Positions 2,844-37,150 of a DNA stretch of 37,150 nt are shown in pieces. Below the pieces are notes generated by a model. The model was not told where the DNA came from and ran no database searches. It was given only the letters and a program-made list of their open reading frames with translations. Where the stretch lies: IMG/VR virus record IMGVR_UViG_3300010403_000040, positions 1-37,150 of that record. One strand, written 5' to 3'. The DNA is from a virus. Position numbers and translations under genes: made by a program. Every line of letters starts with the position of its first letter. Positions within the stretch are counted from its first letter, which is position 1.

Positions 2844-3161
2844 ATGGCTGAACCCGAATTCGTGATCGACGCCACCACCGGCGAGCAGGTCCCTATCAAG
2901 AGGGTGGAGGCTGTTGCGGCCGTCTCCGCGGTTACTCGCGTGGGTAACTATGGGGGGGATTTGCCGCCGGACGCGGCCAAACGAATTGAGAAGGCGATGT
3001 CCGGGGCTGTGATGACAGCTATGGCGGAAGGCGTCAGTGATCCTGAGGCCATTAAACTAGCTATGCTGCGGGCGCGCGAGGACATCAAGGTCAGCATGCG
3101 CGCGGAGTGGAGGAAGTTCATTGCGCAGCAAATGGTAGCGGCGGCCGAACAGGAGAAGTAA
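2844..3161 (+). CDS. Hypothetical helical protein (105 aa)
   Basis: I do not recognise this protein. It starts immediately after the upstream stop (TAA ATG). It has a short extended N-terminus, a hydrophobic Val/Ala patch (VEAVAAVSAVTRV), and then a long charged helix from about residue 45 to the end with Met/Ala-rich faces (PDAAKRIEKAMSGAVMTAMA). No signal peptide or membrane span is evident. Its place between two fibre genes suggests a small virion component or assembly factor. Codons 30-35 carry one copy of the 18-bp palindrome described separately. Confidence 0.6.
   Translation: MAEPEFVIDATTGEQVPIKRVEAVAAVSAVTRVGNYGGDLPPDAAKRIEKAMSGAVMTAMAEGVSDPEAIKLAMLRAREDIKVSMRAEWRKFIAQQMVAAAEQEK
2931..2948. 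repeat. Dispersed palindrome, copy 1 (11/12)
   Basis: GTTACT-N6-GGTAAC, one mismatch to GTTACC-N6-GGTAAC, inside a hypothetical virion-module gene. Confidence 0.7.
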
Positions 3162-4604
3162 TTGGCACGTTTCGCTAACAGTGTGTACTTCACCCCGACC
3201 GCCGGGGGCACCAGCACGTGGACGCTGAGTGCCCTAGTTACGGGGTATATGACGCCAGCACTCGCCGGTGCAGCTGACGGTACCTACACCTATAGAGCTG
3301 AGAGCACCGATCTTTCACAATGGGAAATCGGTATCGGGACGCTGTCTAGCAGTGGTACAGTTTTTTCACGCGACACTGTCTACTACAACTCGTCGAACAG
3401 CGGCGTGGCTACCGGGCAGAGCGGCGCGGGCACGAAGATAAACTTCACGGTCGCCCCGCAAGTCGGTCTTATCCAGATGGTCCACGACACGCTGTGTCCG
3501 GATCAGGCAACTGCATGGACCTACCTGCAGAAGGCGCAGGCGAGGGCGAACATAGACGCCCTCAAGTATAATTACATCATCAACGGCGCGATGATGGTCT
3601 CGCAGGAGAACGGGACGACGGCATTAACCGGTGCCGGGTCCTACCCTGTAGATCAATTCCTTTTGGATTTTGCTACATCTGGAACGTTGTCTATCGCGCA
3701 AGTTGCAAGTGCAACGCCGGGTGGTTCACCGAACCGACTGCGCGTAACGGTTACGGCTGCGGATGCTTCTGTCGCAGCCGGCGATATTGTCTATCTGTCG
3801 ACTAAGATAGAAGGCCTTCGAGTTGCAGACCTTCTGCTTGGATCGGCGTCTCCCAAGACGTTCACGGTTCAGTTCGGAGTGAAGGCACCTGCAGGTACTT
3901 ACTGTGTGGTGGCCTCAAACGGTGGTGCTGGCGGCACACGTAGCTACGTCGCTGAGTATGTAATCTCCGGCGGCGAGGCTAATACCGATGTTGTTAAATC
4001 GGTCACGATAGCTGGCGACACGACGGGGACGTGGCCCAAAGATAATACTGCCGGTCTCGTACTCCGCTGGGGCTTGATGGCAGGCTCGACCTTCCAACAA
4101 GCTGCTGGATCGTGGGGCACCGTCAACGCTATTGGCTCATCGAGCCAATTCAATCTGATGGGCACCAACGGTAACGTATTCGAGCTGTTCGACGTCAGCA
4201 TGACCGAAGGCTCGGCTGCTCCGGTATTTCAGGTGCCGGATTTTACAACCGAACTCCTCAAGTGTCAGCGCTATTGGGAGAAATCCTACGACTACGCTAC
4301 GGCTGTTGCCGCCACTGTCACCCCGGGCAGCGAAACATCTACGTTGGTGATGTCGTCGGCGACCGTTTCGCAGGGAGGCTCGACCGTGTCCTTCAAGGTG
4401 CCTAAGCGCGCCACGCCTACGGTGACAGCCTACTCACCCACGACCGGAGCGTCAGGAAAAATGCGCGACGTACAAAACGTCGTCGATGTTAACGCCAATA
4501 TCGACTACGTCGGCCAGCGCAGTTGCCGAATTTATTCGAGCGCCATTACGGCGAGCTCCGTCCTCGCGCTTATCGTCCATTGGAAATCGGATGCGAGGCT
4601 GTAA
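3162..4604 (+). CDS. Tail fibre / receptor-binding protein (480 aa)
   Basis: The N-terminal 110 residues (ARFANSVYFTPTAGGTSTWT..., SRDTVYYNSSNSG) form a beta-rich virion-attachment region. Near residue 140 comes the fibre signature YNYIINGAMMVSQENGTTAL followed by YPVDQFLLDF. A jelly-roll-like carbohydrate-binding region follows, and then ELLKCQRYWEKSYDY, a tripeptide context common at the C-terminal head of phage fibres. The start is a TTG right after the upstream stop, with AGGAGAAG ahead of it; no better start exists nearby. Several stretches use more A/T-rich codons than the neighbours, as is common in exchangeable host-range genes. Confidence 0.8.
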   Translation: MARFANSVYFTPTAGGTSTWTLSALVTGYMTPALAGAADGTYTYRAESTDLSQWEIGIGTLSSSGTVFSRDTVYYNSSNSGVATGQSGAGTKINFTVAPQVGLIQMVHDTLCPDQATAWTYLQKAQARANIDALKYNYIINGAMMVSQENGTTALTGAGSYPVDQFLLDFATSGTLSIAQVASATPGGSPNRLRVTVTAADASVAAGDIVYLSTKIEGLRVADLLLGSASPKTFTVQFGVKAPAGTYCVVASNGGAGGTRSYVAEYVISGGEANTDVVKSVTIAGDTTGTWPKDNTAGLVLRWGLMAGSTFQQAAGSWGTVNAIGSSSQFNLMGTNGNVFELFDVSMTEGSAAPVFQVPDFTTELLKCQRYWEKSYDYATAVAATVTPGSETSTLVMSSATVSQGGSTVSFKVPKRATPTVTAYSPTTGASGKMRDVQNVVDVNANIDYVGQRSCRIYSSAITASSVLALIVHWKSDARL

Positions 4605-4936
4605 TGGCGCAATATAGATTGACCGCCAACGATATCGTCGTTCGAGCGAGCGACAACGCGAACATCCCGAATGACCCGGGCAACAGCGACCGGATCGTCT
4701 ACAATGCGTGGGTGGCAGCCGGTAACGTACCTGACCCGTACGTAAAACCACAAGAAGAGATCGATAGTGCAACGCGGAAGTCTAGCTTTGATGCTGATGC
4801 AACCCGGGCGGATTTGCTGGCGAGGCTTCGGACTGCTACGCCTGCGCAAATCAACACCTACGTCGACGCCAACGTGACGGACCTTGCCAGCGCCCGCGCG
4901 CTGTTCAAAAAAATTCTTTTGGTATTGGCGGTGTAA
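4604..4936 (+). CDS. Hypothetical fibre-associated protein (110 aa)
   Basis: The start at 4604 overlaps the last base of the fibre stop codon (TAATG); upstream in-frame codons lie inside the fibre gene and are not credible. The N-terminal half is polar and extended (LTANDIVVRASDNANIPNDP). The C-terminal half is helical, with DATRADLLARLRTATPAQIN and a hydrophobic end (KKILLVLAV). The context suggests a small accessory protein or assembly chaperone of the preceding fibre. I see no motif that fixes a function. Confidence 0.6.
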   Translation: MAQYRLTANDIVVRASDNANIPNDPGNSDRIVYNAWVAAGNVPDPYVKPQEEIDSATRKSSFDADATRADLLARLRTATPAQINTYVDANVTDLASARALFKKILLVLAV

Positions 4937-4945
4937 AGCAACACC

Positions 4946-6024: not shown

Positions 6025-6881
6025 TGACCATTCAAATCAAACACTCGTTCACGTCGGCCAAGGGAGACGGTGGCGACGCCACGCTGGTGCGCCCGTCAAA
6101 CTGGAACGCTTCTCACACGACGTCGATGGCTAGCGGCTTTCTACTCGGCCGGCTCACCGCGGGCCCGGGCTCGTTCGAAGAAATTGCAGTTTCCTCCTAT
6201 ATGGCCACGGCGCTCGCCGCCGCAGACGCCTCGGCGCTCCTCGCCGCACTGGGCATCGGTGCCTACAAAGCTGGTGATATTAAAATATCTATCGATGGTA
6301 ACGCAGAGACTGGGTGGGTGGTGCTCACGAGCTCAGTCACCACCATCGGTAAGGCGGGGTCTGGCGCTACCTATGCAGCCGCCGATGCGTGGCCCCTGTT
6401 CAATATATGCTACACCGGCGTTAACGACGCTGGATGCCCCGTATCTGGCGGGCGCACTGGCAACGCCCTCAACGACTTCAACGCAGGCAAGACGATCACA
6501 CTGCCGTGGTTTTCCGGGAGGGCCATCGTCGGCCAAGGCGGTGGCGGCGGGCTCAGCACTCGAACAGTGGGCCTCTACGCAGGGAACGAGACGCATACGT
6601 TGGTGACGGGTGAGATGCCGTCTCACTATCACAGCGCTGGCATCTCCGACCCCACACACTTGCACAACACTGCAGGCGCAATGGTGACGAACGGTGGTAG
6701 CTCGACGGGTGGTGGCGGGTTCCCGGTCACTGGGACGAACTCCAACAGCATCCTCGCCGCAGCAACCGGTGTTCGTGTTAACAGCTCCAACGGGATCGAC
6801 ACGACGTACAGCACGGGTGGTGGCGGAGCGCACAACAACATGATGCCCTTCATCCCGATGTTCATTAAGGCGAAGCTATGA
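6024..6881 (+). CDS. Tail collar-type fibre protein with His-rich tip (285 aa)
   Basis: The N-terminus (HSFTSAKGDGGDATLVRPSNW) is a common virion-attachment motif of short fibres. From about residue 145 the protein has a tail-collar-like domain: TITLPWFSGRAIVGQGGG, then EMPSHYHSAGISDPTHLHN with two HxH motifs, and a terminal AHNNMMPFIPMFIKAKL. In T4-type fibres HxH pairs bind iron along the fibre tip; the same is plausible here. The gene starts on the last base of the adaptor stop codon and overlaps the lysozyme gene by 4 bp (ATGA). Confidence 0.75.
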   Translation: MTIQIKHSFTSAKGDGGDATLVRPSNWNASHTTSMASGFLLGRLTAGPGSFEEIAVSSYMATALAAADASALLAALGIGAYKAGDIKISIDGNAETGWVVLTSSVTTIGKAGSGATYAAADAWPLFNICYTGVNDAGCPVSGGRTGNALNDFNAGKTITLPWFSGRAIVGQGGGGGLSTRTVGLYAGNETHTLVTGEMPSHYHSAGISDPTHLHNTAGAMVTNGGSSTGGGGFPVTGTNSNSILAAATGVRVNSSNGIDTTYSTGGGGAHNNMMPFIPMFIKAKL

Positions 6882-8167
6882 GATCATCGCGCGCAGCAGT
6901 AGACCTGATCATTGAGTTCGAGATCGGCAGCAGGGACCAATACGACGCCAAATACAAGCGGCCCGAGTGGCCCGGCGTGTCATCGGGCATCACTGTCGGC
7001 ATCGGCTATGATCTGGGCTACAACGACGCGACGACGATCCTGAATGATTGGTCCAACCTGCTTGAGCCCAACGTCATCAAGGCCATGCAGCGCTACTCAG
7101 GGCTGACAGGCAGTGCTGCAAGCCACAAGCTGTCGGAGGCGCGGCAGAGCATCCTCGTGCCGTGGGACGCCGGTATGGCGGTCTTCATGAAGACGAGCCT
7201 CCCGAAGTTCGAAGCGATCACGCTGCGTGCATGCCCGGGCTCAGACAAGCTCCCGGCCGGTTGCTTTGGCGTCCTCACGAGCCTCTCCTACAACCGCGGT
7301 GCCAGCTACTCCAAGGAGGGCGACCGTTACGCGGAGATGCGTCAGATCAGGAAGTGGGTGGCAACTGGCGAGTGGGACAAGGTGTCGAGCGCGATCCGCA
7401 ACATGAAGCGCATTTGGGCCAATAATCCGAAGGCGCGCGGGCTTCTTCGCCGTCGCGACGCGGAGGCCAAGCTGTGGGACGAGAGCCTGCACGCTGCGGG
7501 GGGTGTGAGTGCGCGGGTTGACACTGGCGACGACCGCGAGCCGTTACCCTCCGAGGTAACGACCGATGACGTGGTGCCCGTGGAGACAGAGACCCCCGTC
7601 AACGTGCAGGTGTCGCACGCGAAGTATTCGCTGGAGGTGCAGCTGATCCAGAAGGCGCTGATCAGCATGAAGTATTTCGAGGTGGGAGAGCCAGACGGGA
7701 AAGTCGGCGGCAAATTTGTGGCCGGCGTCGCAGCGTTTATGACTGACCGCGGTAAGGACCCGAACAAGGGTCAGATCACGGACGCCTTGAAGAACGAGAT
7801 CAACGCGGCCATGACGGAGAAGTTGGCCGACGGCACGCCGTGGTCCCGGCCTATCGCGCCGGCACGCGCCAACGCCACAGCCGCCGATGTCGCGAAAACA
7901 GTCCCGTCGGTGAACGCGAATTTCTCCCAGAAAGTTCTCGCATACATCCTCGGCATACCTGCTGCCACAGGTGGGTTGCTAAAGGGATTTTTTGGTGACA
8001 AAGATAATCCGTCGGGGTACATCGCCCCGATCAAGGAGTTCTTCGCCGCCATCCCCTCAGAGTTGTACTGGTTCGCAATTGCTGCTATTGCGGTTGGCAT
8101 CTTCCTTGCAGCCAAAAAGGCACAGGACAGCACCGTGAAAGACTACCAGCAAGGAAAGATTAACTGA
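6878..8167 (+). CDS. Endolysin: lysozyme-like muramidase with PG-binding domain and C-terminal membrane anchor
   Basis: Residues 1-200 resemble the pesticin/T4-lysozyme-like phage muramidases: IIEFEIGS gives the likely catalytic Glu15, and YKRPEWPGVSSGITVGIGYDLGY supplies Thr39 and Asp45 of the active-site loop. A linker rich in acidic and Pro residues follows. Residues about 245-310 then match a peptidoglycan-binding fold (LIQKALISMKYFEVGEPDGK). Near the C-terminus a hydrophobic helix at about 394-410 (LYWFAIAAIAVGIFLA) is followed by a basic tail. The enzyme cuts the glycan strands of the wall during lysis. The terminal anchor is unusual for an endolysin. It overlaps the i-spanin gene by one base. 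Confidence 0.82.
   Translation: MRSSRAAVDLIIEFEIGSRDQYDAKYKRPEWPGVSSGITVGIGYDLGYNDATTILNDWSNLLEPNVIKAMQRYSGLTGSAASHKLSEARQSILVPWDAGMAVFMKTSLPKFEAITLRACPGSDKLPAGCFGVLTSLSYNRGASYSKEGDRYAEMRQIRKWVATGEWDKVSSAIRNMKRIWANNPKARGLLRRRDAEAKLWDESLHAAGGVSARVDTGDDREPLPSEVTTDDVVPVETETPVNVQVSHAKYSLEVQLIQKALISMKYFEVGEPDGKVGGKFVAGVAAFMTDRGKDPNKGQITDALKNEINAAMTEKLADGTPWSRPIAPARANATAADVAKTVPSVNANFSQKVLAYILGIPAATGGLLKGFFGDKDNPSGYIAPIKEFFAAIPSELYWFAIAAIAVGIFLAAKKAQDSTVKDYQQGKIN
7543..7560. repeat. Dispersed palindrome, copy 2 (perfect)
   Basis: GTTACCCTCCGAGGTAAC, inside the endolysin gene, in the linker between catalytic and binding domains. Confidence 0.8.
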
Positions 8168-8761: not shown

Positions 8762-8796
8762 CCGTCCGCCGGTGGGCGGGCACGGGGGAGCAGGTT

Positions 8797-10448: not shown

Positions 10449-10451
10449 CGC

Positions 10452-12257: not shown

Positions 12258-12258
12258 C

Positions 12259-12447: not shown

Positions 12448-12890
12448 GGATCGTGATCAACAACATGGAGCATGGCGCGCTTATCGCCGCCGCGATCCCA
12501 CGCCCCTTCGATCCGAACAACAGCGTCGTGTTCAGCCGCGTTACCTCAGAGGGTAACCTGCTGGGCGGCGTGATATATGACGACTACACGAGGGGATGCA
12601 TCTTCATGCATCAGGCCTCGTTCGGCCGTAACTGGTTGACGGGGAACATGATATGGATGGTGTTTGACTATCCGTTCAACAATCTGAAGGTGAACAAAGT
12701 CGCCGGGGTGGTCAACTCCAGAAACCACGAACTTCTTGCATTCAACCAGCGGCTGGGGTTTAAGGAAGAGGCGCGGATCAAGGACGCATATGCTGACGGT
12801 GACATGATCATCCTCACCATGGAGCGCTCAGAGTGCCGGTGGCTGAATATCAAGCCGAAGGTTTATCAAAAGGACCCAACGGATGAGTGA
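12444..12890 (+). CDS. GNAT-family N-acetyltransferase (148 aa)
   Basis: The C-terminal half has the GNAT core: a long helix after MIWMVFDYPFNNLKVNKVAG, then VVNSRNHELLAFNQRLGFKE with the typical Asn and the 'LGF' turn before the last strand, ending in DMIILTMERSECRW. Such enzymes transfer an acetyl group from acetyl-CoA to an amine. The acetyl-CoA loop region is less obvious. TTG at 12444 overlaps the upstream stop and has CAGG seven bases ahead; ATG at 12465 is an alternative. Related acetyltransferases recur in tail/ejection modules of phages with unknown targets, perhaps virion or host proteins. A perfect 18-bp palindrome lies inside. Confidence 0.75.
   Translation: MRIVINNMEHGALIAAAIPRPFDPNNSVVFSRVTSEGNLLGGVIYDDYTRGCIFMHQASFGRNWLTGNMIWMVFDYPFNNLKVNKVAGVVNSRNHELLAFNQRLGFKEEARIKDAYADGDMIILTMERSECRWLNIKPKVYQKDPTDE
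12540..12557. repeat. Dispersed palindrome, copy 3 (perfect)
   Basis: GTTACCTCAGAGGGTAAC, inside the acetyltransferase gene. Confidence 0.8.
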
Positions 12891-14064: not shown

Positions 14065-14076
14065 GGAGCAGCCGCA

Positions 14077-16029: not shown

Positions 16030-16038
16030 GGGTAGTTC

Positions 16039-19000
16039 ATGGCCGACAACAACTACCTCGCGGGCGAGTACACCACCCCGGAAGAGAACAAGTCGCTTGG
16101 CACCGCCGCAGATTTCGGCAAGACGCTTGGAGCAGGCGCTGTCGACATCGGCTCGAACGTTGCCGCGGGCTCGAGGTATTTCTACGAGCTAGGTGGGAGC
16201 GAGGCCGGCGCTGACATCGCGCAGGGCCTCCAGAAGATTTTCGGCTCCACTGCGGACAGCATCCGCGACACGATGAACCCCGAGACGAAGAAGCTGGCAG
16301 CAGCCACGCTGACGTCGGACGAGTTCTGGCAACACCCTGTACTAGGCGCGGCCCTGAAGACCACGGGCATGCTGCCGTCAGTGGCGGCGCTCGCGATCCC
16401 CGGCGGACTGATGGCGGACGCTACCGCGGCAACAATCTTCGCGGCCGGTGCGGGTGGCGTGCTCAACGCTGATGCGGGGCTCGACGAGTTCTACAAGCGC
16501 CTCGATGGCATGAGCGACAAGGAGCTGCAGGAGCAGTCCCCGAAGTATCGCGCCATGCGCGAGATGGCGGACGAGAAGGACGCTCGTGCCAAGTTCAACA
16601 AGATGGCGCAGGGCTGGGGCCCGGCGATCAATGCGGTGTTCGGCGCACTGTCCGGCGCTGTAGGCCCGGCGGGCGTCGCCGCGCGCGGCTTGGCTGGCGG
16701 TACGAAGAAGGCTGTGCTGGGTGCCACCGAAGAGGGCGCGCTAAAGGCGGCTGGGCTCGCCGCGGCTGAAGGCGGCCTGACGAACGCAGCGCAGGAGGGT
16801 GTCGGCGACATCGCGCTGCAGAGCGCGGAGCACGAGGCTGATCTTCGTCGGGAGTTCGACTACGCGCAGACCGCCAACAAGGCGTTGGAAGGCGGTGCGC
16901 TCGGTGCGCTCGTGGGCGGTGCCGTAGGTGCTGTTGCCGGCGGCAAGAAAGCCGCGCGCCCCCCGAAGATACCCGACGAGGTCGCAACCACCGACACGCC
17001 TGACGCACAGGTGAAGAGCGGCTCCACGGGTACCGCGGCGAAGCCAGCCGACTTTGAGGCGAACCCACAGAACGCCCCAACCACCACAGAGCGCGATCAG
17101 GGCAAGGACGACATAAAGACGTCCGCTCCGAAGAAGCCGTTCGTACCACCGCCGGTGCCTGTCGATGCGGCGGTTGCCGCTGCCGTCGGGGCCAACGAAG
17201 GTACGCCGGTCACCGCGCAGCCGACAGAAGCCGCGGCGATGAAGCCCGAGTTGGCTCCAATGGAGCAGCGCTCGCCGAACGAGACGCTGGACAAGCTCGA
17301 TCAGGAGGGCCGTCCATCTGCCCCGGTACCTCCCGAGGTAACGCCGGCTGCAGATACCGGGATGAACGTTCCGGAGCAGCCGGCGTCGCTCGTTGAGCAG
17401 GTCAAGCAGATCGGCACCGGTGGCCGCAAAGCTGTCATGTTGCCGGTTGGCACCAAGGTGCCTGCTGCGTTCACGAAGACAGCGTCTGGATTTAAGCGGT
17501 TCACCAATGGTCGCGGAGTGTTCATCTATGATCCCACCCTCACGAACATTAAGGAAATCAATAAGCTATCTAAGGTGGGACGTGAAAACGAACTCCTCGG
17601 TCTTGGTCCGGTCTCTAAGCCCGAGGCCGTGGCCGCTGTGTCTGCTGGGGCGACGCCTGTTGCGATTACTGAGAGGACGCCGGCCGGTACCGAAGTTAAG
17701 GCCGCCGCAGGTTCAACTCGAACTCTTCCCGAGCAAGTCGCTTCGCTCGAAGCCCAAAAATCACCGGGGAACGTGGTCGCTGTAGAGACCCCTCAGGCAG
17801 TCATAGAGAAGCGCAACGCGCAGGGTGGCCGCATCCTCGATACGAATACCGAGAACATCGTCAACCCGAAGTTCGAGGAGAACGAGGCTCGCGCTGCCGC
17901 TGCTGACGAAGTACGGCTAGCCCGCATCGCGAAGGCTGAAGCTGAAGAAGCCGGTAAGGGTGCCCCATCAAAAACCAACTATCGTGGCGAGCGCGGCCGG
18001 AAGCGCGACGAGGCAATCGCTATCGCGAAAGACGCGGTAGACAAGCATCCGCCGAACGAGGGGCGGGAGAAGGGTGCACAGGCGCTGAATGCACCGCGTG
18101 CCGCGCTGGTCGAGCGTGCGCGCAAGATGGTGGAGTACGCCGAGAAGAAGCTTGGCAAGCCGATCCAGTCGCAGATCAAGCTGAGCAAGGACGGTACCGC
18201 GCCGAGTGACAGCCCCGACGTGCTGACGCTGCGCATCGCCAAGGACTTGGTCAAGCAGGCCGACCGCAAGTCTCCGTCGATGAACAAGATCATCACGGAC
18301 TTCCAAGCTGATGAATTCCTGATCCGTCATGGCTTTAAGGAAGAGGTGGTCAAGCGCCGGCTCGAAGAGGGCAACCGTGAGAAGCAGCAGCATGGCGGCG
18401 ATGAGCAGCTAGCGACCGTCAAGGACGAGGAGGCCCGCAAGGGACTGGACGAAGAAGACTTCCCGCTGCCGGACGAGAAGACCGACGACGAAGCTCCGAG
18501 CCACGCCACCGGCGAAGTCACCAGTGTGGACGCCGACGCTGCGGTGGCCGCTACCAGTGATCTGTCCGAGCACGAGGCCGGTGAGATCGTGCAGGGGCCG
18601 AGCGTCGCGCACATCAAGGAGGTCGTGAACGAGAAGGCGAAGACCACGCTATCGGCACGCGAAGCCCGCAAGGCCGCACTGTCTGGCGTTGCCACGAAGG
18701 GCATGCCCGACCGCGCGCCGACGAAGAACAACGTACCGACGAAGTCTGCTGTCCGGGCCGCGGCGGAGCGCTACCTTGAAACCAAGGCGAAGCGGGTAAC
18801 CCGCGAGCTTGGGGAAACCACCGGCGAGTTGGTCAGTAAGTACGACCAGCTGGGCGAAGGCAATAAGGTCAAGACCCGGGAAGAGTTTGCCGAGTACGGC
18901 AAAAAATACGGGGTAGACACCGACGCCATACAGGCTGAAGTCGAGACTATCCTCTCGGAGGAAAGCAAAGAGCGCAGGGAGGTTGCTGACAACCGCCGGC

Positions 19001-22000
19001 GCATCATTGCCAACATGCGTTCCGAGCAAGTCCAAAACCTTAAGAAGGAGCAGGCGGACCTTAAGAAGGAAGCTCTCCGCGTCAACACCAACCCCACCCC
19101 GGCGCAAGCCGCAGCAGGCAACTACAAGAAGGGACACAAGACCGTTGAAGGACTTCCATTCACGATTGAGAACCCGGCGGGCTCTGTCCGTCGTGGCTTC
19201 GACGCCGACGGAAACGTCATCTGGAAAACCAAGATGCCAGCCGGGGTCGACTACGGATATTTTAAGGGCACTCGAGGTGCAGACGGAGATCATATCGACG
19301 GCTATGACCTTCGTACGGGAAACCGTAATTTTGTGGTGGATCAGCTCGACGCTCGCACTGGAGAGTTCGATGAACACAAAGTGTTCACCCGAGCCAAGGA
19401 CGAAGCACACGTCCTTGAGACTTATCGAGCGGCGTTCTCCGACGGCCGAGCCGACGACCGTCTAGGTAACCTCCACGAGGTAACTCGCGAAGAGCTGCAC
19501 GAGTGGCTGGACAAGCCGCAGACCGATCCGATCACGAAGACGATGCTTGAACGCGACATCGGCAATGTGAATTTCGACGTGCCGGAGGGCCCGCGGAAGT
19601 CTCACATTGCTATGGATGGGACTGAACTCAACCCGATCAAGAGCACCACTGCCGAGGCCATGCTCAACGAGATGGACCTGTCACAGGTGCCGGGCGTTCA
19701 CGGTGTGGTGTCGCGCTTCACGCAGGGTATGCTGAAGAAGCTGGCGAAGAACGTCGAGGTGCATCTCGTGTCGGAAGCCGACATGAATAAGCTCTCCGGC
19801 GTCGACGCGCTGGGGCTGCACACCTATCTGCCGGGCACCACCGATGCGAGCGTGGTCTACATTTCAGCGAATGCGAAGCCGACCGGCTACGGCGTTGGCA
19901 CGCGCAACCACGCGCTGCTACATGAGCTGGTGCATGCGGTCACCTCGCGCGAGATCAACAACGTCCCCGGTGCGTCGGCGCAGATCACCAAGCTTATCCA
20001 GTTGACGATCCAGCACGCGGGCAACACCGGTGCGCTGGAGAACATCCTGCAGAAGAAGGGCAACCTCTGGTATGGCCTGACCAATCCGCACGAGTTCATG
20101 GCCGAGGCCATGAGCAACCAGAAGTTTCAGGAGTTCTTGGCGACGGTGCCGATTGATCGCGCCACCGCGAACCATCTAGGCATCCACCCGCGGGGCCGTT
20201 CACCCAACGCATGGGACATGGTGCGCCACTGGGTGAAGAAGGCGGTCGAGAAGGTCACGGGCGTGCTGCCCAATTTCGACAGCGCGCTGGACGGCATCTT
20301 GCGCGTGGGCGACGTGCTGACGTCCAAGCACATGCAGCAGCACCTCATGCCGCGCGAGCAGGCCCGCTCCGCTCACGAAGTGGTGCGCAAGGACGCGTTG
20401 AAGATGGTCGACGATGCCGTCGATCTGGTGAAGAGCGTTGTGTCGCGGCCCGAGAACAACACGGCCGAGGGTACCGTGAAGATGCTGCGCTGGCGCACGT
20501 TCGACGACATCGCGCGCCTCGCGGATAGCTTCTTCACCGAGCACAACCCAATCCGCACCATCCACACCGCCATCGAGAAGATGCGTGTCCGTTACGAGCG
20601 CCTAGTCGAGAAGGCGGACCCCGTAGTCAAGGACTACGCGGCGCTGCGTGCACGTGACCCGGAGGCTTACAAGGAACTCACGTCGCTACAGCATGACGCG
20701 ACAATGGCGAACGTGCACCCGGATGTGCCGCTGACCGACGCCAAGAACGGCCACCTGAAGGGCAACAAACTCGTCGGCGACTATGTGTGGCAGAAGGCGC
20801 AGCACGCTGAACTGGCCAAGCGCTACGCCGCGCTGCCTGAGGATGCAAAGGCGCTGTGGTACAAGGCTGGACAGTATTATGCTGACCAGCAAGGCATGAT
20901 GACGAGCGGCATCACCAACAACCAAATCCTCAAACTGTTCGGGGTGAAGGATGCAGCGCTTGCAGAACGCATCCGTACGGATACTGTTACTGATGCTGAT
21001 CGCGCCCAGCTTGGTGGCAATCTGGAAATTATCCAAGAGGCTGGGAAGCTGGCGAAGATCGAGGGCTACTACGTCCCTCTGATCCGCCGCGGCGATCATG
21101 TTGTGCAGGCTGATGAAAAGATTACCTTGCCGGGTAACGCGAAGCCGGTAAAAGATGGCGCGGGGAAAGTCATCCCGAACGAAATGGAATTCAGTACCGC
21201 CAAGGAGGCGGAGGCGTATGCGAAAGCATCACCCAATAAGGCCACGATTGAAAAAGTGTGGCTCGATCCCAAGACAGGGGAGCGGTTGGGGGCCGACGAA
21301 CTGGACAGTGTTGATCGCTATCGGGTGTCGGTGCAAAACCGGCATGTCGAGTTCGTCGAAGGTAAGCGTGCGGCGGAAGCGCGTGCCGCTGAACTTGCTC
21401 AGGACGGAAGCCTTATTGTCCACGAGGTGGTTCCTCGCCGTGTCGACACCAACGCTCGACATGGTGCCGAGGTATCGACAGCACTTAGCCGTCTCATTAA
21501 GCGGCTTGAGCGTTCTGACGCTTATGAGCGAGCATCTCCCACCGAGCGAGCGACGATGCGTCGTGCCATCGAAGAAGCTGCCCTCGCATCGCACGGCTCG
21601 ACGCGGATAAGCTCGAAGAGCCTCCCCCGCCGCGGCGTGAAGGGGTACAGCGAAGACAGCATCCACAACACGCTCGACTATGCACAGGCGAGTTCGCGCT
21701 ACATTGCGAAGCTGGAGCACAGCGCTGAGCTTGAAGCTGGCATGAAGTCGATGGAGGAGCAGCTAGGAGTGGACCACTCCAAGGGTGGTCTCTACGCGCG
21801 CACGTCCATTGCAAACGAGGTCCGCCGGCGGGTCGAGGGTGACAACGGCTTCGAGCAGGGCGGCAAGATGGCCCCGTGGATCAAGCGCGCCATGAGCGCG
21901 AGCTTCACGGACAAGCTGGGCTCGCCGGCCTACAGCATCATCAACGCGATGCAGACGTCCATGATCACGATGCCCTACTATGTGGCGAAGTACGGCGTCG

Positions 22001-23895: not shown

Positions 23896-23911
23896 TTATC
23901 AGGAGCATCAC

Positions 23912-24421
23912 GTGAAGAAATATCTGTTAGCGATAGGAATTCTCTGCGCGCTTTTTTCTGTAGCCGAAGCGCGGCCGAAGCAAACGCACCAAGTCCATCC
24001 CGAATGCAATGTCACAATGCCCTGCGAAGGTGTGGCGACTTCATCGCGTGGCCAGCGGGTAATCCTTGCGCAACATGGGTTCGGTTCACCGGTTATGACA
24101 TACACGCCGACGAGCACCGTGTCGTCTCACGACAATTTAGGTCCTCGACCGAGCAGATGGTGCGGATGGTACTTGCAGCAAAAAACCGGTGTTACCTCCC
24201 GGGGTACAGGCCTTAATCTGAACCGGGCGATTGAATGGGCCAAAGTTGGTCGTCCCAGCGAGCCAGCACCCGGCGTAGTCGTAGTGTGGAGACATCACGT
24301 AGGCGTTCTCGTAGCTCCGGCGGAACGTGGACTGTGGATGGTGCATTCGGGAAACGACGGCCATGCAGTTCGCACAAGACCGCGAGCAATCTCTGCTGCC
24401 GTTGCATTCAGAGCCCTATGA
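23912..24421 (+). CDS. Secreted CHAP/NlpC-like cell-wall hydrolase (169 aa)
   Basis: GTG at 23912 has CAGGAG seven bases upstream and gives a clean signal peptide (KKYLLAIGILCALFSVAEA, cleavage near residue 20). The mature part carries SRWCGWYLQQKTG with the candidate nucleophile Cys84, LNLNRAIEWAKVG, GVVVVWRHHVGVLV with His128/His129, and SGNDGHAVRTRPR with Asn148. This is the layout of the CHAP-like papain-fold family frequent in Rhizobiales chromosomes, which cleave peptidoglycan peptides or amide bonds. It is the last gene of the plus-strand block and overlaps the convergent minus-strand gene by 14 bp. A role in lysis or host-wall remodelling is inferred. Confidence 0.72.
   Translation: MKKYLLAIGILCALFSVAEARPKQTHQVHPECNVTMPCEGVATSSRGQRVILAQHGFGSPVMTYTPTSTVSSHDNLGPRPSRWCGWYLQQKTGVTSRGTGLNLNRAIEWAKVGRPSEPAPGVVVVWRHHVGVLVAPAERGLWMVHSGNDGHAVRTRPRAISAAVAFRAL
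24191..24208. repeat. Dispersed palindrome, weak copy 6 (10/12)
   Basis: GTTACC-N6-GGTACA, inside the CHAP-like gene; two mismatches, so chance is possible. Confidence 0.45.
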
Positions 24422-25659: not shown

Positions 25660-25900
25660 GTTTGCCTCCCCATGCTGCGGAAAATTTTCGTTTTTCGTAG
25701 ATGATGACCTCCATCGTCCGCCAACGATACCTGCACTTTAGGCACTGGCGTATTCGGACGAAGGTAACGTTTCGCTGCACCTTACCTCGCAAGGTAACGT
25801 GGCATGGCTTGCGGCGCGTCTCAACGACTTGGCTCTTGCCCAAGCCGGGAGGACGCTTCCCCGGCTTGGACCCTTTGCAGAGCGGGCAGATTGTGCTCAT
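25610..25900 (-). CDS. Zinc-ribbon protein with NrdR-like N-terminus (96 aa)
   Basis: ATG at 25900 follows the upstream stop by 2 bases. Residues 1-63 form a zinc ribbon: ICPLCKG (Cys5, Cys8), VVETRRK, and VRIRQCLKCRYRWRTMEVI (Cys53, Cys56). The order 'CPxC ... ETR ... RxRxCxxCxxRWxTxE' closely follows the NrdR repressor's zinc ribbon, but the ATP-cone domain is absent, replaced by a basic tail. It probably binds nucleic acid and could regulate transcription. A near-perfect 18-bp palindrome lies within the gene. Confidence 0.65.
   Translation of the reverse strand: MSTICPLCKGSKPGKRPPGLGKSQVVETRRKPCHVTLRGKVQRNVTFVRIRQCLKCRYRWRTMEVIIYEKRKFSAAWGGKREPLLSRRPAQGASDA
25781..25798. repeat. Dispersed palindrome, copy 7 (11/12)
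   Basis: CTTACC-N6-GGTAAC in the zinc-ribbon gene. A further half-site GGTAAC stands at 25763-25768, exactly 30 bp from the right arm. Confidence 0.7.
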
Positions 25901-26253: not shown

Positions 26254-29200
26254 TAGATTTCGTCCACGAAGTTAAGGTCGGGTGACGATGCGAGATCGAT
26301 CTGGATAATGTTCTCCTTGGAGAAGGCCAGACCGGTCCCTCCACCAAGGTATCCAACCACGTTGGTCATGGTCATGGAGGCTTTCAGTGCCTCCATGAGT
26401 AGATGTCTGGACTTGCCGGACTTCTTCAGCCACTCGCCGAACGCGCTCGACGAGATGCGCATCAGCTTGTCGTTCTGGCCGATCTGAACACAGATACCGT
26501 TCAACCGTGAAATGTCCGCCGGGCGGAAGACCTTCACAGCGTTAGGCGTGTTCGGTTTCGGGGGCTTGCCAACAGCTATGTGAATGCGATCCGTCCAGAT
26601 CACTTTGTTCGTCGCCTGCATGTCTTTCAAGAAAGAAGACATAATCGATGATATATTGATAGTACGCGTTAGGTCTACAGTCTGCTGACCCCGCAACACG
26701 CGCATAGTGTTCAACGAGCGCAACATAAAGGCCTTCAGTGACGGCTCGTCGAAGACCGCGTACCCCAACAGATTGGCGTAGCGCGCGCCCAGCAAGATAC
26801 ACGCAATCAGCGATATCCAAAACCGCTCCTCCTGATGCGAGTTGGTCTCGATGTTCAGCTGCTTGCTCAGTGCAGCCATATCACTTTCGATCTGGTGAAA
26901 GTTGGCTCCAAGCCACTGTGCATACTTCAGACCCACCGAACCATAGTTCGTGTTCAATTTTGATAGCCTGATCGTAGCTTCCGACGTATCGACTATACCA
27001 GTCTGCGACGGTGTAGCTGGAGTAACCGTGTATTCGAAGATGCGGTACAGTCCTGCCAGCGTTGTTTGGGTTTGCTGCGTCACGTGGTCGATCAAGCTGT
27101 CGTTCGAGGCAGAGATGACTAACGTCTGCCAGTGTCCGGGCTCTTTCATCTGTGCGTGCTGATTGAGCCGCGACTTCTCCTTGCCCTGTGCAATTTGAAA
27201 AGTCATGTTGACGAACTTTTTGGTGTCTTCGTCGGTCTTTAATTCGTCCCAGTAGATCGGCAAGGAACGAACTTCGCCGATTTTCTTCATCACAGAATTC
27301 TGCGTATCTGATAAGGACTGCACTGCGCGAATTGGATCGCCCCAGACTGCCTGCGCGATCCTTAATGCAGTAGACTTGCCGATGCCACTTTCCTTTGAGT
27401 ATGCGCTCATGAGCATACCCAGATGTCCAGTGAACATCACAAGGGGAGCAGCGAAAGCCGAAGCTACAATTGCTTCCAAATCGGGCCTGCCTTGCGACGT
27501 GACTAGCTTTACCGCATCTAGCCAATATGCGTCGGAGCCTCTGGGCTTGTACTGTTGGTTGACTACCGGGTTTGCGGTAGCGCTCGGCGAGCTTCCAGCA
27601 GGCGTCCAGAGCTGACCACCATATATAAAACCTTCCGTCTGGCCGTTTTTGTCGTGCCAACCAAAAGGAGCACTCGCCACGCTGTCTTTGATCATTTGAA
27701 GTTTTTTCACCCATGACACGAAAAAGTCTCCCGAGAATTTGTCTGTGGTCCCCAGCATGAACCCTTGGCTCTGCAGGATTTTGCGCATCTCGTTGGTACC
27801 GATGTACTCAAGATCGATGCTGATCTGGCCCACCTTGTTGCGCTCCACCACGCTGTCGAAGTGGAGAATGTTCGGGTCCTTCTGCAGCCAAGCATTCATC
27901 ATCGGATAGTCGCTGATGGGGATGCTGATCTGCTGCTGAGGGTTCGCGGGGTCGACTACCACACGACACACGATGTTCGCCGGCGTGCGGAGATATCCCG
28001 CCGGCAAATCAGCGTTACCTTGCGGGGTTACCTGCTGAAGACCTTGCGGTACGCCCGATGCATTGACTGCACCGCCGCCAGCTGTTCCTCCAATGGCTTG
28101 CTGCTGTTGTCCCACGGGTTGCCCGACGGCAGCTCCAAATCCGCCTGCTTGTACAATTGGATTTGGCACCGGCTGAGCTGCCTGATGGCCTGCGACCGCA
28201 GCCGCTTGGTTTCCACCAAGTACTCCTTGAGCCGGGCGTTGTTCGAAGTTAAGCGGGCTTTTTCCTTGAGCAAAAAGAGCACAGCCTTTGCAAGCTGTAC
28301 CTCCCGTTGCCGAGATGGTTCCGCAGCTGGGCCAGCCAAGACCGCGTTCGCGGCGCTCGCGATCCTTGCGGTCGTAAAACTCATCCGTGCTGTCTTTGGT
28401 GTAATCGGCATGCTTGTCTCCCATACGGTGAGCATCGGCACGCCCACCCTTTGTGAAGGTTGAGATTAGGGTGGTGATGTTCCAGAGCGGGTTGTTTAGA
28501 CCGCTGCCACCTGTGGCAACTGCATCACGTAGGAAGCCACACAGTGGAGTAACCAGATCAAGATCAGGAGAAGGCCAAAGCTCATCGAGCCCACTCTGAA
28601 GCTCAGAAGCTGGAGCGGTGATAACCCGTAGCGGAAACAGGGATCGGTCGACTGCCAGCGTTGCTTGTGCCTGTGGTACTCTTCCAGCATACGGCTGAAG
28701 AGGAGCAGATACACGCTCAAGGCTGTAATCGAAGTCAAGAGGGGTGCCAATAAACCGGACATGTCGCGCAGGCTCCTGCTTGCGGTTGAGAGTGTCGGGG
28801 ATGCGCAGCACGCGAACGCTGTCCACGGTGCACTGCGTGTCGCACAGGAGCCCGTTGGCCTTCGCAGCTTCGGCGAGGGAGAACGCAATCGGGAGCCATT
28901 CGTCGGGGCTGAGTGCGCGGTCCACGCACCAATAGAAATGGAAGCCGCCGCCGGAGTGAACGATCATCGTCGGCTTTGGGAGGCCAATCGTGGCGATGAA
29001 CTTCATCGTCTCCCGCACCGCGTCCTCGGCGGTGAGGTAACTCTTACCGTCCGGCTTGCCATAGTCGACGTCGAGGAAGAAGCTCTTGAGCGCGATGGCG
29101 TTGGTGGCGAGGCGGATCGGTGCGTTGTAGACGCGCGGGAATTTCCCCTTGGTGGTCTTGGCGTCGGCAGCGAGCTGCGTCGACATACAGGCGTAGACGT

Positions 29201-31230: not shown

Positions 31231-31231
31231 C

Positions 31232-31249
31232 GTTACCTCCGAAGGTTAT
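31232..31249. repeat. Dispersed palindrome, weak copy 9 (10/12)
   Basis: GTTACC-N6-GGTTAT in an intergenic gap; one arm overlaps the ribosome-binding site of the Gp157-like gene. The only intergenic copy. Confidence 0.5.
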
Positions 31250-31276
31250 ATGTTTCAGTTTCCTTGCCACTCCGGG

Positions 31277-31528: not shown

Positions 31529-31570
31529 TTCTCTCTCCTGTTTCAGTGTTTCGGACAGCCGGCCAGACCG

Positions 31571-33151: not shown

Positions 33152-33497
33152 CGGAATTCCTGATGTGTGTGAGCATCGTCCGGAGCACGTCGCACCCGAA
33201 CTCCCCATCGATGACCATGTCGACGCCGCCGGCACCGATGGTCTCCGCGAGGGTCATCTCCTGACGGGGTTGTGGCTTCTTTCCGGGAGCCTTCACCTCG
33301 ATGGAAATGTATCGGCCATAGTAGCACACGATGCAGTCGATGTCGCTAGCGCCGAAGCCTGAAGGCACCGGCCAGAACTGCTTCAGCGTACCGACGACAT
33401 AGTCGTGACCGTTATAGGTGACGACCTTCTGCTCGTCGAATTCGCGGAGCACGTCCCGCACCATCTTCTTCACTTTACCTTCGGGGGTACCAGCCAT
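33123..33497 (-). CDS. VRR-NUC domain nuclease (124 aa)
   Basis: A single-domain VRR-NUC (PD-(D/E)XK superfamily) protein: TPEGKVKKMVRDVL at the start, PVPSGFGASDIDCIV with Asp52, then GRYISIEVKAPGKKPQPRQE with Glu67 and Lys69 as the D...ExK catalytic set, and AGGVDMVIDG. Such enzymes cut branched or structured DNA and act as phage-encoded resolvases/nucleases. It starts two bases after the upstream stop (TGACATG). Codons 3-8 hold a weak copy of the 18-bp palindrome. Confidence 0.85.
   Translation of the reverse strand: MAGTPEGKVKKMVRDVLREFDEQKVVTYNGHDYVVGTLKQFWPVPSGFGASDIDCIVCYYGRYISIEVKAPGKKPQPRQEMTLAETIGAGGVDMVIDGEFGCDVLRTMLTHIRNSDADYRKRQA
33474..33491. repeat. Dispersed palindrome, weak copy 10 (10/12)
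   Basis: TTTACC-N6-GGTACC at codons 3-8 of the VRR-NUC gene; two mismatches. Confidence 0.45.
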
Positions 33498-33498
33498 G

Positions 33499-33831: not shown

Positions 33832-33908
33832 CAGAGCACCACCAGCAGGAACGCAAGGAAGCCGAGCACGATCCAGATACCTAGAGGGCCTAGGTCGAAT
33901 ATACTCAT
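33831..33908 (-). CDS. Single-span membrane micropeptide (25 aa)
   Basis: The ATG overlaps the upstream stop (ATGA) and the stop overlaps the next start (TGATG), so it exactly fills the space between two genes. The product is a short polar start (MSIFDLGP) and a single hydrophobic helix (GIWIVLGFLAFLLVV). No separate ribosome-binding site is strong; translation would be by coupling. Its composition resembles the 27-residue micropeptide at the other end of the operon, without clear sequence identity. Confidence 0.6.
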   Translation of the reverse strand: MSIFDLGPLGIWIVLGFLAFLLVVL

Positions 33909-34150
33909 CCGAGCACCATCACAAGTTTAGTCATTAGTACCTCGATGTCCTTTTCGCTGGAGCCTCCCAGCTCGATGGCTGCAAGCTCCTTCGCGCCCAC
34001 TGCGGGGATGCTACTTCCCCTCTCGCAGGCGTCGTATATAAAAATGCAGTAGCGCCGGGTCTCCGGGTGGATGCCCCAAGAGAATGGTACTCCCGGCCAC
34101 CGCCTGCTCACCTCCGGTGCTATCTTGCCATACATCAAACTGAAGCTCAT
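33905..34150 (-). CDS. Paralogous small protein 4 (81 aa)
   Basis: Member of the tandem small-protein set. It has SLMYGKIAPEVSRRWPG, a beta segment (TRRYCIFIYDACERG) and the C-terminus EKDIEVLMTKLVMVLG, which aligns at the 'TKxxMxxG' end with the other members but lacks FPSD. ATG overlaps the previous stop (ATGA) with AGGTGG close upstream. Function unknown. Confidence 0.6.
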   Translation of the reverse strand: MSFSLMYGKIAPEVSRRWPGVPFSWGIHPETRRYCIFIYDACERGSSIPAVGAKELAAIELGGSSEKDIEVLMTKLVMVLG

Positions 34151-34458: not shown

Positions 34459-34466
34459 GCGGGTTC

Positions 34467-34793
34467 TCACGAGATCATCAAAATTTTTGTAACGGTAAGC
34501 TGGCTCACAAAGGCTTCCGCCTTCTCCGTCACCGTAAAGATTGGGCCCGCCCATTTCGGTGGATTGACCGCGGATGACCGATATACGTTGAGGGTAATCG
34601 TCAGCTTGTCCGTGTCCCATGACGTGAAGAAACGCAAATCCTTGGCGGGGATATTTTCGCGCAGGAACCGTTCGCCCTCGTCGGCCCACTGCGCCAGCCT
34701 GATGGGCTTAAAGTTCGCCATACCAATCGCCATGCGGCCGGCCATCATCTCGTTCTGCGTGCTCAGTGGGTACTTTTGCCATTGTGCGGGCAT
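34467..34793 (-). CDS. Paralogous small protein 2 (108 aa)
   Basis: ATG at 34793 overlaps the nuclease gene by 31 bp; ATG at 34748 inside it is a possible shorter start. The protein has MANFKPIRLAQWADEGERFL, a beta region (FFTSWDTDKLTITLNVYRSS) and ends AFVSQLTVTKILMIS, aligned at the TKxxM tail with the other members of the set but without FPSD. Function unknown. Confidence 0.55.
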   Translation of the reverse strand: MPAQWQKYPLSTQNEMMAGRMAIGMANFKPIRLAQWADEGERFLRENIPAKDLRFFTSWDTDKLTITLNVYRSSAVNPPKWAGPIFTVTEKAEAFVSQLTVTKILMIS

Positions 34794-35482
34794 GACTTCA
34801 CCGCACACCAGCTCTTGCACATCCCGGACGGCGTTGGCGGATAGTTCGTGTGCTTGTGCGCCGTCTCCATCGCCTCGATCCGATGCCATATCGATCTCCA
34901 CATTGCGGGCATGTCGTCCCTGTAAAACGTTTCGCTGCTCTCGCAGTCGTCCTTGAGCCACACGTAGGTGGAGCGCACCGCTTTCACCTGCGGGAACTTG
35001 GCGAAGATGCATGCGGCGGTCAACGCGAGCTGCACGCTGTCCTCGAGAATTTTGCCGGTCTTCCAGTCCACGGCGAGCGCCACATCTCCGACCACGCGCA
35101 TGAAGTCGCACTTGACGCGGAGCCAGACGTTCGCATCGAAGTTACCCACCGAGGTAAATTCCTTGCTCATGGCAAGGCCTTCCTCGACGTAGACATCTCC
35201 AGTGGAGCCAAGCACCTTCATGGCCCACGCCTCCGCGAACGGCATCGCCGACACCAAGTCTTTGGGGAGAGGCACGCGGTTGGGGCCGCAGCGATCAGCG
35301 AGCGCCTTATGGACGAAGTTGCCCCACCGGAGCTGCTCGCCTTCCGGCTCCTTGACATTCTTCGCGAGGTCGATCTCGTAATGCCGCTTCGGGCACACCT
35401 CGAAATTCTTCATGCGGGAGAAGCTCCACGCGAAGGGCTTCTGACGAATTGCGCCTGTGCGCGTGGAGGTAACGACTGCCAT
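34763..35482 (-). CDS. Cas4/AddB-like Fe-S PD-(D/E)XK nuclease (239 aa)
   Basis: The N-terminus reads SFSRMKNFEVCPKRHYEI, the C-terminus GMCKSWCAVKSCPHNG: Cys30 with Cys222, Cys226 and Cys231 form the 4Fe-4S cluster site characteristic of Cas4, AddB and related nucleases. Between them lie GNFVHKAL (His58), VKCDFMRVVGDVALAVDWKT with Asp126, Asp139 and Lys141 as the metal-binding catalytic set, and a Gln-containing motif (DSVQLALTA). Such proteins are 5'-3' exonucleases for recombination or end processing. ATG at 35482 has AGGAAGG seven bases upstream and overlaps the previous stop. Confidence 0.82.
   Translation of the reverse strand: MAVVTSTRTGAIRQKPFAWSFSRMKNFEVCPKRHYEIDLAKNVKEPEGEQLRWGNFVHKALADRCGPNRVPLPKDLVSAMPFAEAWAMKVLGSTGDVYVEEGLAMSKEFTSVGNFDANVWLRVKCDFMRVVGDVALAVDWKTGKILEDSVQLALTAACIFAKFPQVKAVRSTYVWLKDDCESSETFYRDDMPAMWRSIWHRIEAMETAHKHTNYPPTPSGMCKSWCAVKSCPHNGKSTH
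35141..35158. repeat. Dispersed palindrome, copy 11 (11/12)
   Basis: GTTACC-N6-GGTAAA, inside the Fe-S nuclease gene. Confidence 0.7.
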
Positions 35483-35886: not shown

Positions 35887-35888
35887 CA

Positions 35889-36308
35889 CTAACCTCCCAT
35901 CATTCGCACTTTAGTGATCAGGGCATCGCTGGGGAAGAGTGCGGGGTCATCCTCCAGCACAATAGATTGAGCATCGCTGGTCAGTATCCACATGAACGCT
36001 TTCTCGCCGACCATGCGGTATTCGACGAAAGCAAAACAATTCGGAATGCATCCGGGCTGCCAACCCATCCGCATCTCCATCTTCTCTTGGTAGTTGTACA
36101 CGCGCGGCGGCGATTGTGGAGGCGGAATTGGTCTAGCATAACCACCAATAGCTATGCCCTGCTGATCATCTATCGCTCTGCCTGCCTGCTGCATCAAGCG
36201 GGTCGCTAGCGCCTTCTTCAGCTCTTCAGCCTCACGCTTTGAGGCTGCGCGCTTAAGCTGCGCGGTGAATTTATCGATCTCGTCGTCGCTCAGGTTCGCG
36301 CCACTCAC
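35889..36308 (-). CDS. Paralogous small protein 1, FPSD motif (139 aa)
   Basis: GTG at 36308 overlaps the polymerase stop (GTGA) with GGAG six bases upstream, so translation is coupled; the longer reading upstream lies inside the polymerase gene. The N-terminus is a charged helix (DDEIDKFTAQLKRAASKREA). A Pro-rich turn (ARPIPPPQSPPRVYN) follows, then a beta domain (GCIPNCFAFVEYRMVGEKAF) and the shared end ALFPSDALITKVRMMGG. It is the longest and first member of the set. Function unknown. Confidence 0.65.
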   Translation of the reverse strand: MSGANLSDDEIDKFTAQLKRAASKREAEELKKALATRLMQQAGRAIDDQQGIAIGGYARPIPPPQSPPRVYNYQEKMEMRMGWQPGCIPNCFAFVEYRMVGEKAFMWILTSDAQSIVLEDDPALFPSDALITKVRMMGG

Positions 36309-37150
36309 TTCGCATCTCCATAGGTGGGACCGGACTTCAAGTCGCACGCCAGCGGCAGGTCCGGTGCCCACGCCGGGCGGCGGTTCATCTCTTCTCGCAT
36401 GATGTTACCCACCGCGGTAACCAGCGCATCCGGCATCACGTAGGCCAGCGCGTCGTGCACCTGCAGGGCGAGCTGGATGAAGCCCCAGCCTGCTGCTTTC
36501 AGTCGCGCAGCGATCCGGGTGCTTGCGTCCATGACGATGCAACGCGCAAGAGCTTGCACGATGTTTTCGAGTAGAGCGCCACCGTAGAGCCGTCGCGGCT
36601 TTCCAGCATGATCGTAGAGCCACTGCCCATCAGGGGTTTGTCGGAGATTATGGTAGTACAGGAACAACCCGTTGGGGAGAGAAATGCGTCCTTTGAAGAA
36701 TACGCAAGGGCCAATAGAAAAAGCGCCGGGCCCGCCAGCAAGGATAGGGATCGCATTGTTCAACGCCCTCCACATCGCGGGTACGCCGGTGTAAGTCCCA
36801 CGGTACGTGTTGACGATCAACATGCTCTGTTGATCTTGCAGGATCAGCTCCTGACCCTTACCAGTCAGCTTGACGGCTTCCAATGATTTCACGCGGACTT
36901 GGTGCTTAAATTTCACCCAGCCCAATCCGAACCCGAGACCCAAGATCGAAGTCTTACCCAAGAACCGCTGCTCCGGCGTTACCTGCGAAACGTCCACATG
37001 GAACACCTTCGCAGCGAATATTTTGTATGGATCGAGCCCGCGCGCGAACTGATCCAGCAGGTCCGTCTCGCCACACAGCCACGCCACGATGCGCGCTTCG
37101 ATCTGCGAACTGTCCGTGTTGACCACCTTCCATCCGAACCACGCCATGAG
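36305..37150 (-). CDS. Family-A DNA polymerase, C-terminal fragment
   Basis: The frame runs off the right edge; the ATG near 37147 is internal to the polymerase domain. Motif A is VVNTDSSQIEARIVAWL, motif B covers EQRFLGKTSILGLGFGLGW, and motif C reads LALQVHDALAYVMPD. The catalytic Asp residues of A and C and the Lys of motif B are kept, but the Glu after the motif C Asp is Ala here. The protein extends the DNA chain at the phage fork, and it heads the minus-strand replication operon in this window. A perfect 18-bp palindrome lies near its 3' end. Confidence 0.85.
   Translation of the reverse strand, partial: LMAWFGWKVVNTDSSQIEARIVAWLCGETDLLDQFARGLDPYKIFAAKVFHVDVSQVTPEQRFLGKTSILGLGFGLGWVKFKHQVRVKSLEAVKLTGKGQELILQDQQSMLIVNTYRGTYTGVPAMWRALNNAIPILAGGPGAFSIGPCVFFKGRISLPNGLFLYYHNLRQTPDGQWLYDHAGKPRRLYGGALLENIVQALARCIVMDASTRIAARLKAAGWGFIQLALQVHDALAYVMPDALVTAVGNIMREEMNRRPAWAPDLPLACDLKSGPTYGDAK
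36404..36421. repeat. Dispersed palindrome, copy 12 (perfect)
   Basis: GTTACCCACCGCGGTAAC, inside the DNA polymerase gene near motif C. Confidence 0.8.

Follow-up and report, generated by a model that had tools for sequence, protein, structure and literature searches.

A dispersed palindrome array in phages related to Rhizobium and Bradyrhizobium phages

Virus record IMGVR_UViG_3300010403_000040 of IMG/VR (positions 1 to 37,150; "the window" is this whole stretch of 37,150 nucleotides) carries scattered copies of an 18-bp palindrome, GTTACCY-N4-RGGTAAC. The dispersed palindrome is real, and an array of it is a family trait of phages related to rhizobium and Bradyrhizobium phages. The palindrome is very probably a DNA site for a symmetric protein dimer, with two half-sites across a free spacer. 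Dimers bound along the array may control phage transcription as a network of operator- or stoperator-like sites. We give this explanation a probability of roughly 55%.

The array in the window and its relatives

An earlier note, made from the letters of the window, had listed twelve copies, and every coordinate is correct. Three copies match all 12 half-site bases (7543, 12540 and 36404), six have one mismatch and three have two. The constant spacer of 6 holds as well: in a scan of gaps 0 to 12, gap 6 yields 14 copies and any other gap at most three. The two further copies at gap 6, 6336 and 33405, are weak. The spacer starts with a pyrimidine in all twelve copies and ends with a purine in eleven (36404 has C), as described.

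Chance does not produce such numbers. With up to three mismatches the window contains 14 copies, whereas 100 dinucleotide shuffles averaged 1.96 and never exceeded 6. TTACC-N6-GGTAA is also the top dyad in an unbiased search of all 5- and 6-base dyads with gaps 0 to 24 (p ~1e-12.7, before multiple testing). Codon-preserving shuffles, which the earlier note had named beforehand as a test that could refute the array, yield a mean of 0.06 perfect copies (3 observed), 1.67 copies with at most one mismatch (maximum 5; 9 observed) and 7.3 with at most two (maximum 11; 14 observed). This test is conservative because intergenic bases were left unshuffled. Nor are the copies lost in relatives, the other outcome that would have spoken against the array: eight of nine aligned sites persist in relative G008 and six of eight in G012, with flanks only ~74% identical. 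Because copies are found in non-coding DNA as well as in genes of either strand, and codon shuffles fail to reproduce them, we reject an artefact of a protein motif.

The record is entire at 37,150 bases, yet it is a partial phage genome. The source phage is about 60 kb long and related to Rhizobium phage RHph_TM3_14A (TM3; circular, 60,889 bp), whose capsid is 71% identical to that of the window. The window capsid is 63-96% identical to those of many viral contigs, some of which are 58-68 kb long. Set against TM3, the record lacks the early region with its small genes.

Each near-complete relative has between 30 and 100 copies; the spacer is 6 bp, or 5 bp in some lineages. Under a strict pattern, relatives have 28-41 copies; the richest ~60-kb records of the first set have 30-41, and their reverse-read control gives 0-1. 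Counting spacers 5 and 6 together, there are 64 sites in TM3, 73 in G034 and 100 in G055 (in 58.7 kb). Spacer 5 occurs beside 6 in TM3, G034, G037, G048, G016 and G029; other spacings are not enriched. Outside the family the pattern is rare. When 2.9 million viral contigs were scanned with the 16-base pattern GTTACCTCNNGAGGTAAC, only ten matched: seven with the capsid of the palindrome family, the fragment G062, which has 16 sites in 10.9 kb along with the early gene EarlyX (discussed below), and two with two sites each. The array is absent from G050, a relative whose capsid is 67% identical and whose replication genes are the same.

The array is confined to phage and prophage DNA. Allowing one mismatch, there is a single match outside the phage contig in the 8.7 Mb of one Bradyrhizobium assembly, and none outside the prophage in the 7.9 Mb of another. 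This bears on the idea that the phages exploit sites of a host-encoded regulator. Phages of alphaproteobacteria are known to carry many sites for the host transcription factor CtrA (PMC9437464), and the identified hosts of our family are alphaproteobacteria. However, CtrA sites have the form TTAA-N7-TTAA and cluster in gaps or terminal repeats, whereas our top dyad is TTACC-N6-GGTAA, is spread across the phage genome and is practically absent from the two host chromosomes. The motif also drifts between related phages: the spacer is 5 or 6, and in G043 R...Y adjoin the half-sites. We reject the host regulator as very improbable.

Some phages have palindromes of their own. In G043, a second and different palindrome, TTTCCCASTGGGAAA, stands beside the TTACC-N6-GGTAA array with nine perfect copies (13604-19390), only in the early region. 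The early region of G048 contains a gap-5 palindrome, GTTACCCANTGGGTAAC (10149-21061), at whose centre the start codon ATG is often found, so that many early proteins there begin with MGK or MGN; the gap-6 form in G048 lies mostly outside the early region. Five exact copies of another dyad, AGTCCG-N4-CGGACT, are present in Puniceispirillum phage HMO-2011.

DNA site or RNA hairpin

The sites are not placed evenly with respect to genes. Of 549 sites, 209 (~38%) are centred in non-coding DNA, which makes up 10.8% of the sequence (p 2e-62). Site density is 1.20/kb on the early/replication strand and 0.56/kb on the late strand (p 1e-17). Site centres peak at -15 to -6 bp from start codons, with 62 and 68 sites per 5-nt bin against mostly ~10 in neighbouring bins. 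About a quarter of the sites (130/501) are start-proximal, and at the peak the AGG of the downstream (right) half-site falls in the Shine-Dalgarno position. A partner half-site with at most two mismatches accompanies 101 of 118 start-proximal exact GGTAAC half-sites at gap 5 or 6, compared to 1 of 118 at control gaps. Therefore the whole dyad is retained and not merely a ribosome-binding site.

The earlier note offered two options, a site for a DNA-binding protein or a 7-bp RNA hairpin. A hairpin could sequester the Shine-Dalgarno sequence or be bound by an RNA-binding protein. Many sites do overlap the ribosome-binding position, and a fold is possible for the perfect copies (-5.5 to -6.9 kcal/mol). 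However, folding of several copies in the window is no better than that of shuffles, an Rfam search gives no match, and copies within genes or in convergent intergenic stretches play no part in ribosome binding.

Pair statistics decide against the hairpin. Among 501 sites compared, A4-C5 and G14-T15 hardly vary, T is accepted at C6 and A at T3 (the latter mostly at starts), position 1 is under little constraint and the spacer ends favour Y...R; these frequencies are partly built in, as sites were picked by their similarity to the consensus, a bias from which cross-genome comparisons are free. In intragenic sites read in sense orientation, the recognised half-site positions do not covary, recognised pairs show no compensatory changes, and mismatches are spread over both halves. 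A.C is as frequent as G.U, without the strand asymmetry of an RNA stem: the spacer-edge pair 7/12 is CA in 37 cases and TG in 34, and pair 6/13 is CA in 16 and TG in 26 at gap 6 (CA 16, TG 11 at gap 5). Only the two central adjacent bases deviate, which reflects a dinucleotide preference. From the missing covariation and the balance of CA and TG at pair 7/12, it follows that the spacer edge acts as two independent half-sites. Start-proximal sites often have A.A at pair 3/16. We thus reject the hairpin on its pair statistics and regard it as highly improbable. An intrinsic terminator is rejected too, since the flanks have no T-run and the stem shows no compensation.

Comparisons between genomes point to the half-sites as the conserved unit. 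Half-site identity is 0.87-0.96 against an aligned background of 0.74-0.84 in four genome pairs (p 0.0036, 0.0068, <5e-5 and <5e-5), for example 0.875 vs 0.740 between the window and G008 and 0.960 vs 0.837 between G031 and G036. Spacers drift near background (at or just above it in three of the four pairs, below it in one). Sites also keep their positions within aligned genes: co-located pairs number 21 in the scaffold-like gene (1.0 expected at random), 16 in the SNF2 helicase (1.4) and 18 in the large virion protein (2.0).

Dyad symmetry, a free spacer, conservation specific to the half-sites, absence from host chromosomes and restriction to one phage family all favour the first option of the earlier note, the DNA-binding-protein site. 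Another DNA-level explanation is that the copies act as boundaries of homology and promote the exchange of gene modules between related phages by recombination. Many copies do lie at gene junctions, but 18 bp is short for homologous recombination, the half-sites are conserved and the spacers are not, and intragenic positions are retained. It is the least probable of the explanations that we considered.

What the bound array may do

In the explanation that we prefer, a phage-encoded protein would bind the palindrome as a symmetric dimer, each subunit reading a half-site NTTACCY, with half-sites 5 or 6 bp apart. The array provides one site at many gene junctions and more inside long genes, most densely in the early/replication half. 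Bound dimers would block or tune transcription along the phage genome, at operators and at elongation-blocking, stoperator-like sites, and the outcome would be a genome kept quiet in the prophage, damped early genes, or both. Just before a start codon, the AGG of the downstream half-site would double as the Shine-Dalgarno sequence, so that no extra bases are needed. Such a dimer would account for the placement at gene junctions, the early bias, the conservation of positions, the symmetry (genes run in both directions) and the temperate relatives. The stoperator-like role suggested in the earlier note would match the layout and the temperate relatives.

Lysogeny is within the repertoire of the family, because relatives include an integrated prophage and encode integrases; the evidence comes from these relatives, as the window record is incomplete. 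In Bradyrhizobium sp. 139 a relative is present as an integrated prophage split over two contigs. Its genes and sites run from 29.2 kb to the end (61.0 kb) of contig C111 and then from the start of contig C166 (1-25.2 kb) to a large serine recombinase gene at 23,486-25,165. A methyltransferase and a polyprenyl synthetase lie beyond one end, and an S49 peptidase and glyQ/glyS beyond the other. Tyrosine integrases are encoded by G061, G029 and G036.

The leading candidate for the binder is the putative DNA-binding EarlyX family. EarlyX is about 250 aa long, and its gene opens the early block (in TM3 gene 28, 18372-19100; product QIG67493.1). All motif-bearing genomes whose sequence includes the early region have EarlyX, in diverged form in G043, G048, G062 and G021; G050 and HMO-2011 do not have it. 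A site lies just upstream of its gene, typically within 60 bp, in TM3, G034, G031, G036, G029, G048 and the Bradyrhizobium prophage, and in several of these another lies just downstream; G008, G012 and G013 have no upstream site. Its AlphaFold model, built on six sequences (pLDDT 80.6), consists of helices. With Foldseek this model has no PDB relative and only two phage homologues, a PDB sequence search gave no match either, and the EarlyX alignment lacks the conserved stretches that a broad search for distant members needs. An ATPase/VWA pair and a 257-aa protein have a similar distribution to EarlyX. In G008, a tRNA-like sequence, judged by eye, directly follows the 3' end of the EarlyX gene, just after 8016.

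Other candidates fared worse. Proteins with three tandem helix-turn-helix (HTH) repeats occur only in TM3 (24216-24767) and G055 (8490-9578), which are both site-rich, and are not universal. An OmpR-type winged helix is found in eight genomes and was not detected in the window, G008, G012 or G048. A link between a second early protein of G048 and EarlyX, which would have matched two proteins to two motifs, was not significant. No ParA/ParB family appears among the scanned proteins of the window and of TM3 or among 81 early proteins of G055 and G061 (for PHROGs, among the matches listed), with part of all proteins scanned.

A more specific possibility is that EarlyX itself, as an abundant early dimer with a new, HTH-free and all-helical fold, binds the 30-100 sites and sets transcription of the whole genome, with two such palindromes in G043 and G048. 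At gene starts the sites would then also serve for ribosome binding, and further sites would be interspersed along long genes. This is doubtful, and we propose it only tentatively.

Several observations weigh against transcription control, by EarlyX or by another protein. No repressor was identified. EarlyX has no recognisable DNA-binding fold; its gene is early and lies on the lytic strand, which makes it no obvious lysogeny repressor. Its association with the motif is weak because the genomes share ancestry and G050 represents essentially one loss. The flanks of 192 intergenic gap-6 sites contain no promoter-like hexamers, so classical operators are not supported. More than half of the sites are intragenic, and integrases are found in only some family members. 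Finally, our sites are symmetric, whereas known stoperators are asymmetric and oriented, and silencing in phage L5 needs that orientation.

The main rival is a role in genome architecture: a dimer would coat or loop the phage DNA, for condensation, nucleoid exclusion, packaging, partition or protection, and have no direct part in transcription. No gene class lacks sites, and phages have them whether or not an integrase was detected. In site-rich genomes they are also spaced more evenly than at random. The coefficient of variation of spacing is 0.71 in TM3 (0.97 for random sites) and 0.62 in G055, where none of 2000 uniform draws was as even; for G061 p is 0.008. The evenness is less clear in G034 and G012, is not significant in G008, G016, G031 and G036, and may partly mirror gene spacing. 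Moreover, a twofold density of early over late sites, placement at start codons and intragenic positions fixed over long evolution are unexpected for purely structural sites. Hence the condensation or partition suggested in the earlier note fits poorly as the sole role. We consider genome architecture unlikely, and transcription control by a bound dimer remains our preferred explanation.

Window sites and known systems

Virion genes occupy the + strand of the window (1-23.9 kb). The - strand carries a replication block at 24.4-37.1 kb: a DUF927 primase/helicase, an SNF2 helicase, a VRR-NUC-type nuclease (named by synteny with the TM3 annotation), a RecB-like exonuclease and DNA polymerase A.

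Five sites lie within virion-strand genes. The first, GTTACTCGCGTGGGTAAC (2931..2948, one half-site mismatch), is within the open reading frame (ORF) 2844-3161(+). The perfect site GTTACCCTCCGAGGTAAC (7543..7560) within ORF 6878-8167(+) is lost in G008 and G012, and the perfect site GTTACCTCAGAGGGTAAC (12540..12557), within the acyltransferase-like ORF 12453-12890(+), is retained in both. The gene 16039-23442(+) for a 2467-aa virion protein contains GGTACCTCCCGAGGTAAC (17325..17342), retained in G008, and ATTACCTTGCCGGGTAAC (21121..21138), retained in G008 and G012. Two sites follow outside genes: GTTACCTCCCGGGGTACA (24191..24208) is in non-coding DNA between the converging gene blocks, and CTTACCTCGCAAGGTAAC (25781..25798) is between the called genes 24775-25659(-) and 25903-26217(-).

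Within the replication block, GTTACCTTGCGGGGTTAC (28014..28031) lies in the primase/helicase gene 26253-29411(-). At the start of ORF 30808-31230(-), ATAACCTTCGGAGGTAAC (31232..31249, read on the - strand) stands immediately 5' of the ATG, with GGAGG in the Shine-Dalgarno position; it is retained in G008. The other sites are TTTACCTTCGGGGGTACC (33474..33491) within the start of the VRR-NUC-like gene 33123-33497(-), GTTACCCACCGAGGTAAA (35141..35158) within the RecB/exonuclease-like gene 34763-35482(-) and GTTACCCACCGCGGTAAC (36404..36421, perfect half-sites) in the 3' part of the DNA polymerase A gene 36305-37147(-). These three and GTTACCTTGCGGGGTTAC are retained in both G008 and G012. The weak sites GTCACCACCATCGGTAAG (6336..6353) and GTGACCGTTATAGGTGAC (33405..33422) have two half-site mismatches each and may be chance.

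The 2467-aa virion protein is a polyvalent protein with an inorganic-pyrophosphatase-like domain (PF18823) and LPD39. The TM3 gene 42239-45322, annotated as a putative integrase, is homologous to the DUF927 primase/helicase of the window, and the annotation looks wrong. TM3 also has small early paralogues with a common A-M-L-L-G motif (21650-25026 and 33759-34052).

A literature search by motif letters found no phage precedent for the palindrome. The closest described system is the array of Cluster O mycobacteriophages (the Corndog group), whose 17-bp dyad repeats, TGTTCGG-N3-CCGAACA, occur in 34 copies in Corndog, about a third of them in coding regions (PMC4351075). In 2015 these repeats were read as sites for dimeric proteins whose function was not known, and control of transcription initiation was judged unlikely (PMC4351075). 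In both arrays a single dyad, perfect or nearly so, recurs tens of times (more than 30 copies per genome); many copies are intergenic and some lie within genes, and the repeats are denser in one genome half and absent from host genomes. However, the phages are unrelated, ours belonging with Rhizobium phages, and half-site and spacer differ (a fixed 3 bp there, 5 or 6 here). Our array also reaches 100 copies per genome, has a marked peak at the start codon and Shine-Dalgarno position, and is conserved across much larger divergence.

Stoperators of Cluster A phages (L5, Bxb1) are 13-bp asymmetric sites that follow the direction of transcription and bind a monomeric repressor (PMC6550527, PMC9283540); the need for orientation in L5 silencing is described in PMC9283540. 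They resemble our sites in number (20-30 or more genome-wide), in their short intergenic gaps, in motif drift between relatives and in belonging to temperate phages, which for our family is seen in the Bradyrhizobium sp. 139 prophage and the integrase-bearing relatives. The palindrome differs in being symmetric, with mismatches in both halves. Start-Associated Sequences of Cluster K phages are repeats in the ribosome-binding position a few bp before the starts of non-structural genes (PMC3203893). Our start-proximal sites share that position, but Start-Associated Sequences are asymmetric, one-directional and limited to starts in the non-structural half, whereas most of our sites lie away from starts and late genes also have them. 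The palindrome array combines features of all three systems and by sequence belongs to none. The inverted-repeat operators of phiC31 and the c1 operators of P1 are further analogues.

The family thus represents a second, unrelated and much more diverse group of phages with a dispersed-palindrome architecture like that of Cluster O. The Rhizobium phage RHph_TM3_14A and a Bradyrhizobium lysogen are both in culture, G050 is a relative that naturally lacks the motif, and intragenic positions are conserved. Cultured members, the motif-free relative and the conserved positions make the role of such arrays directly testable.

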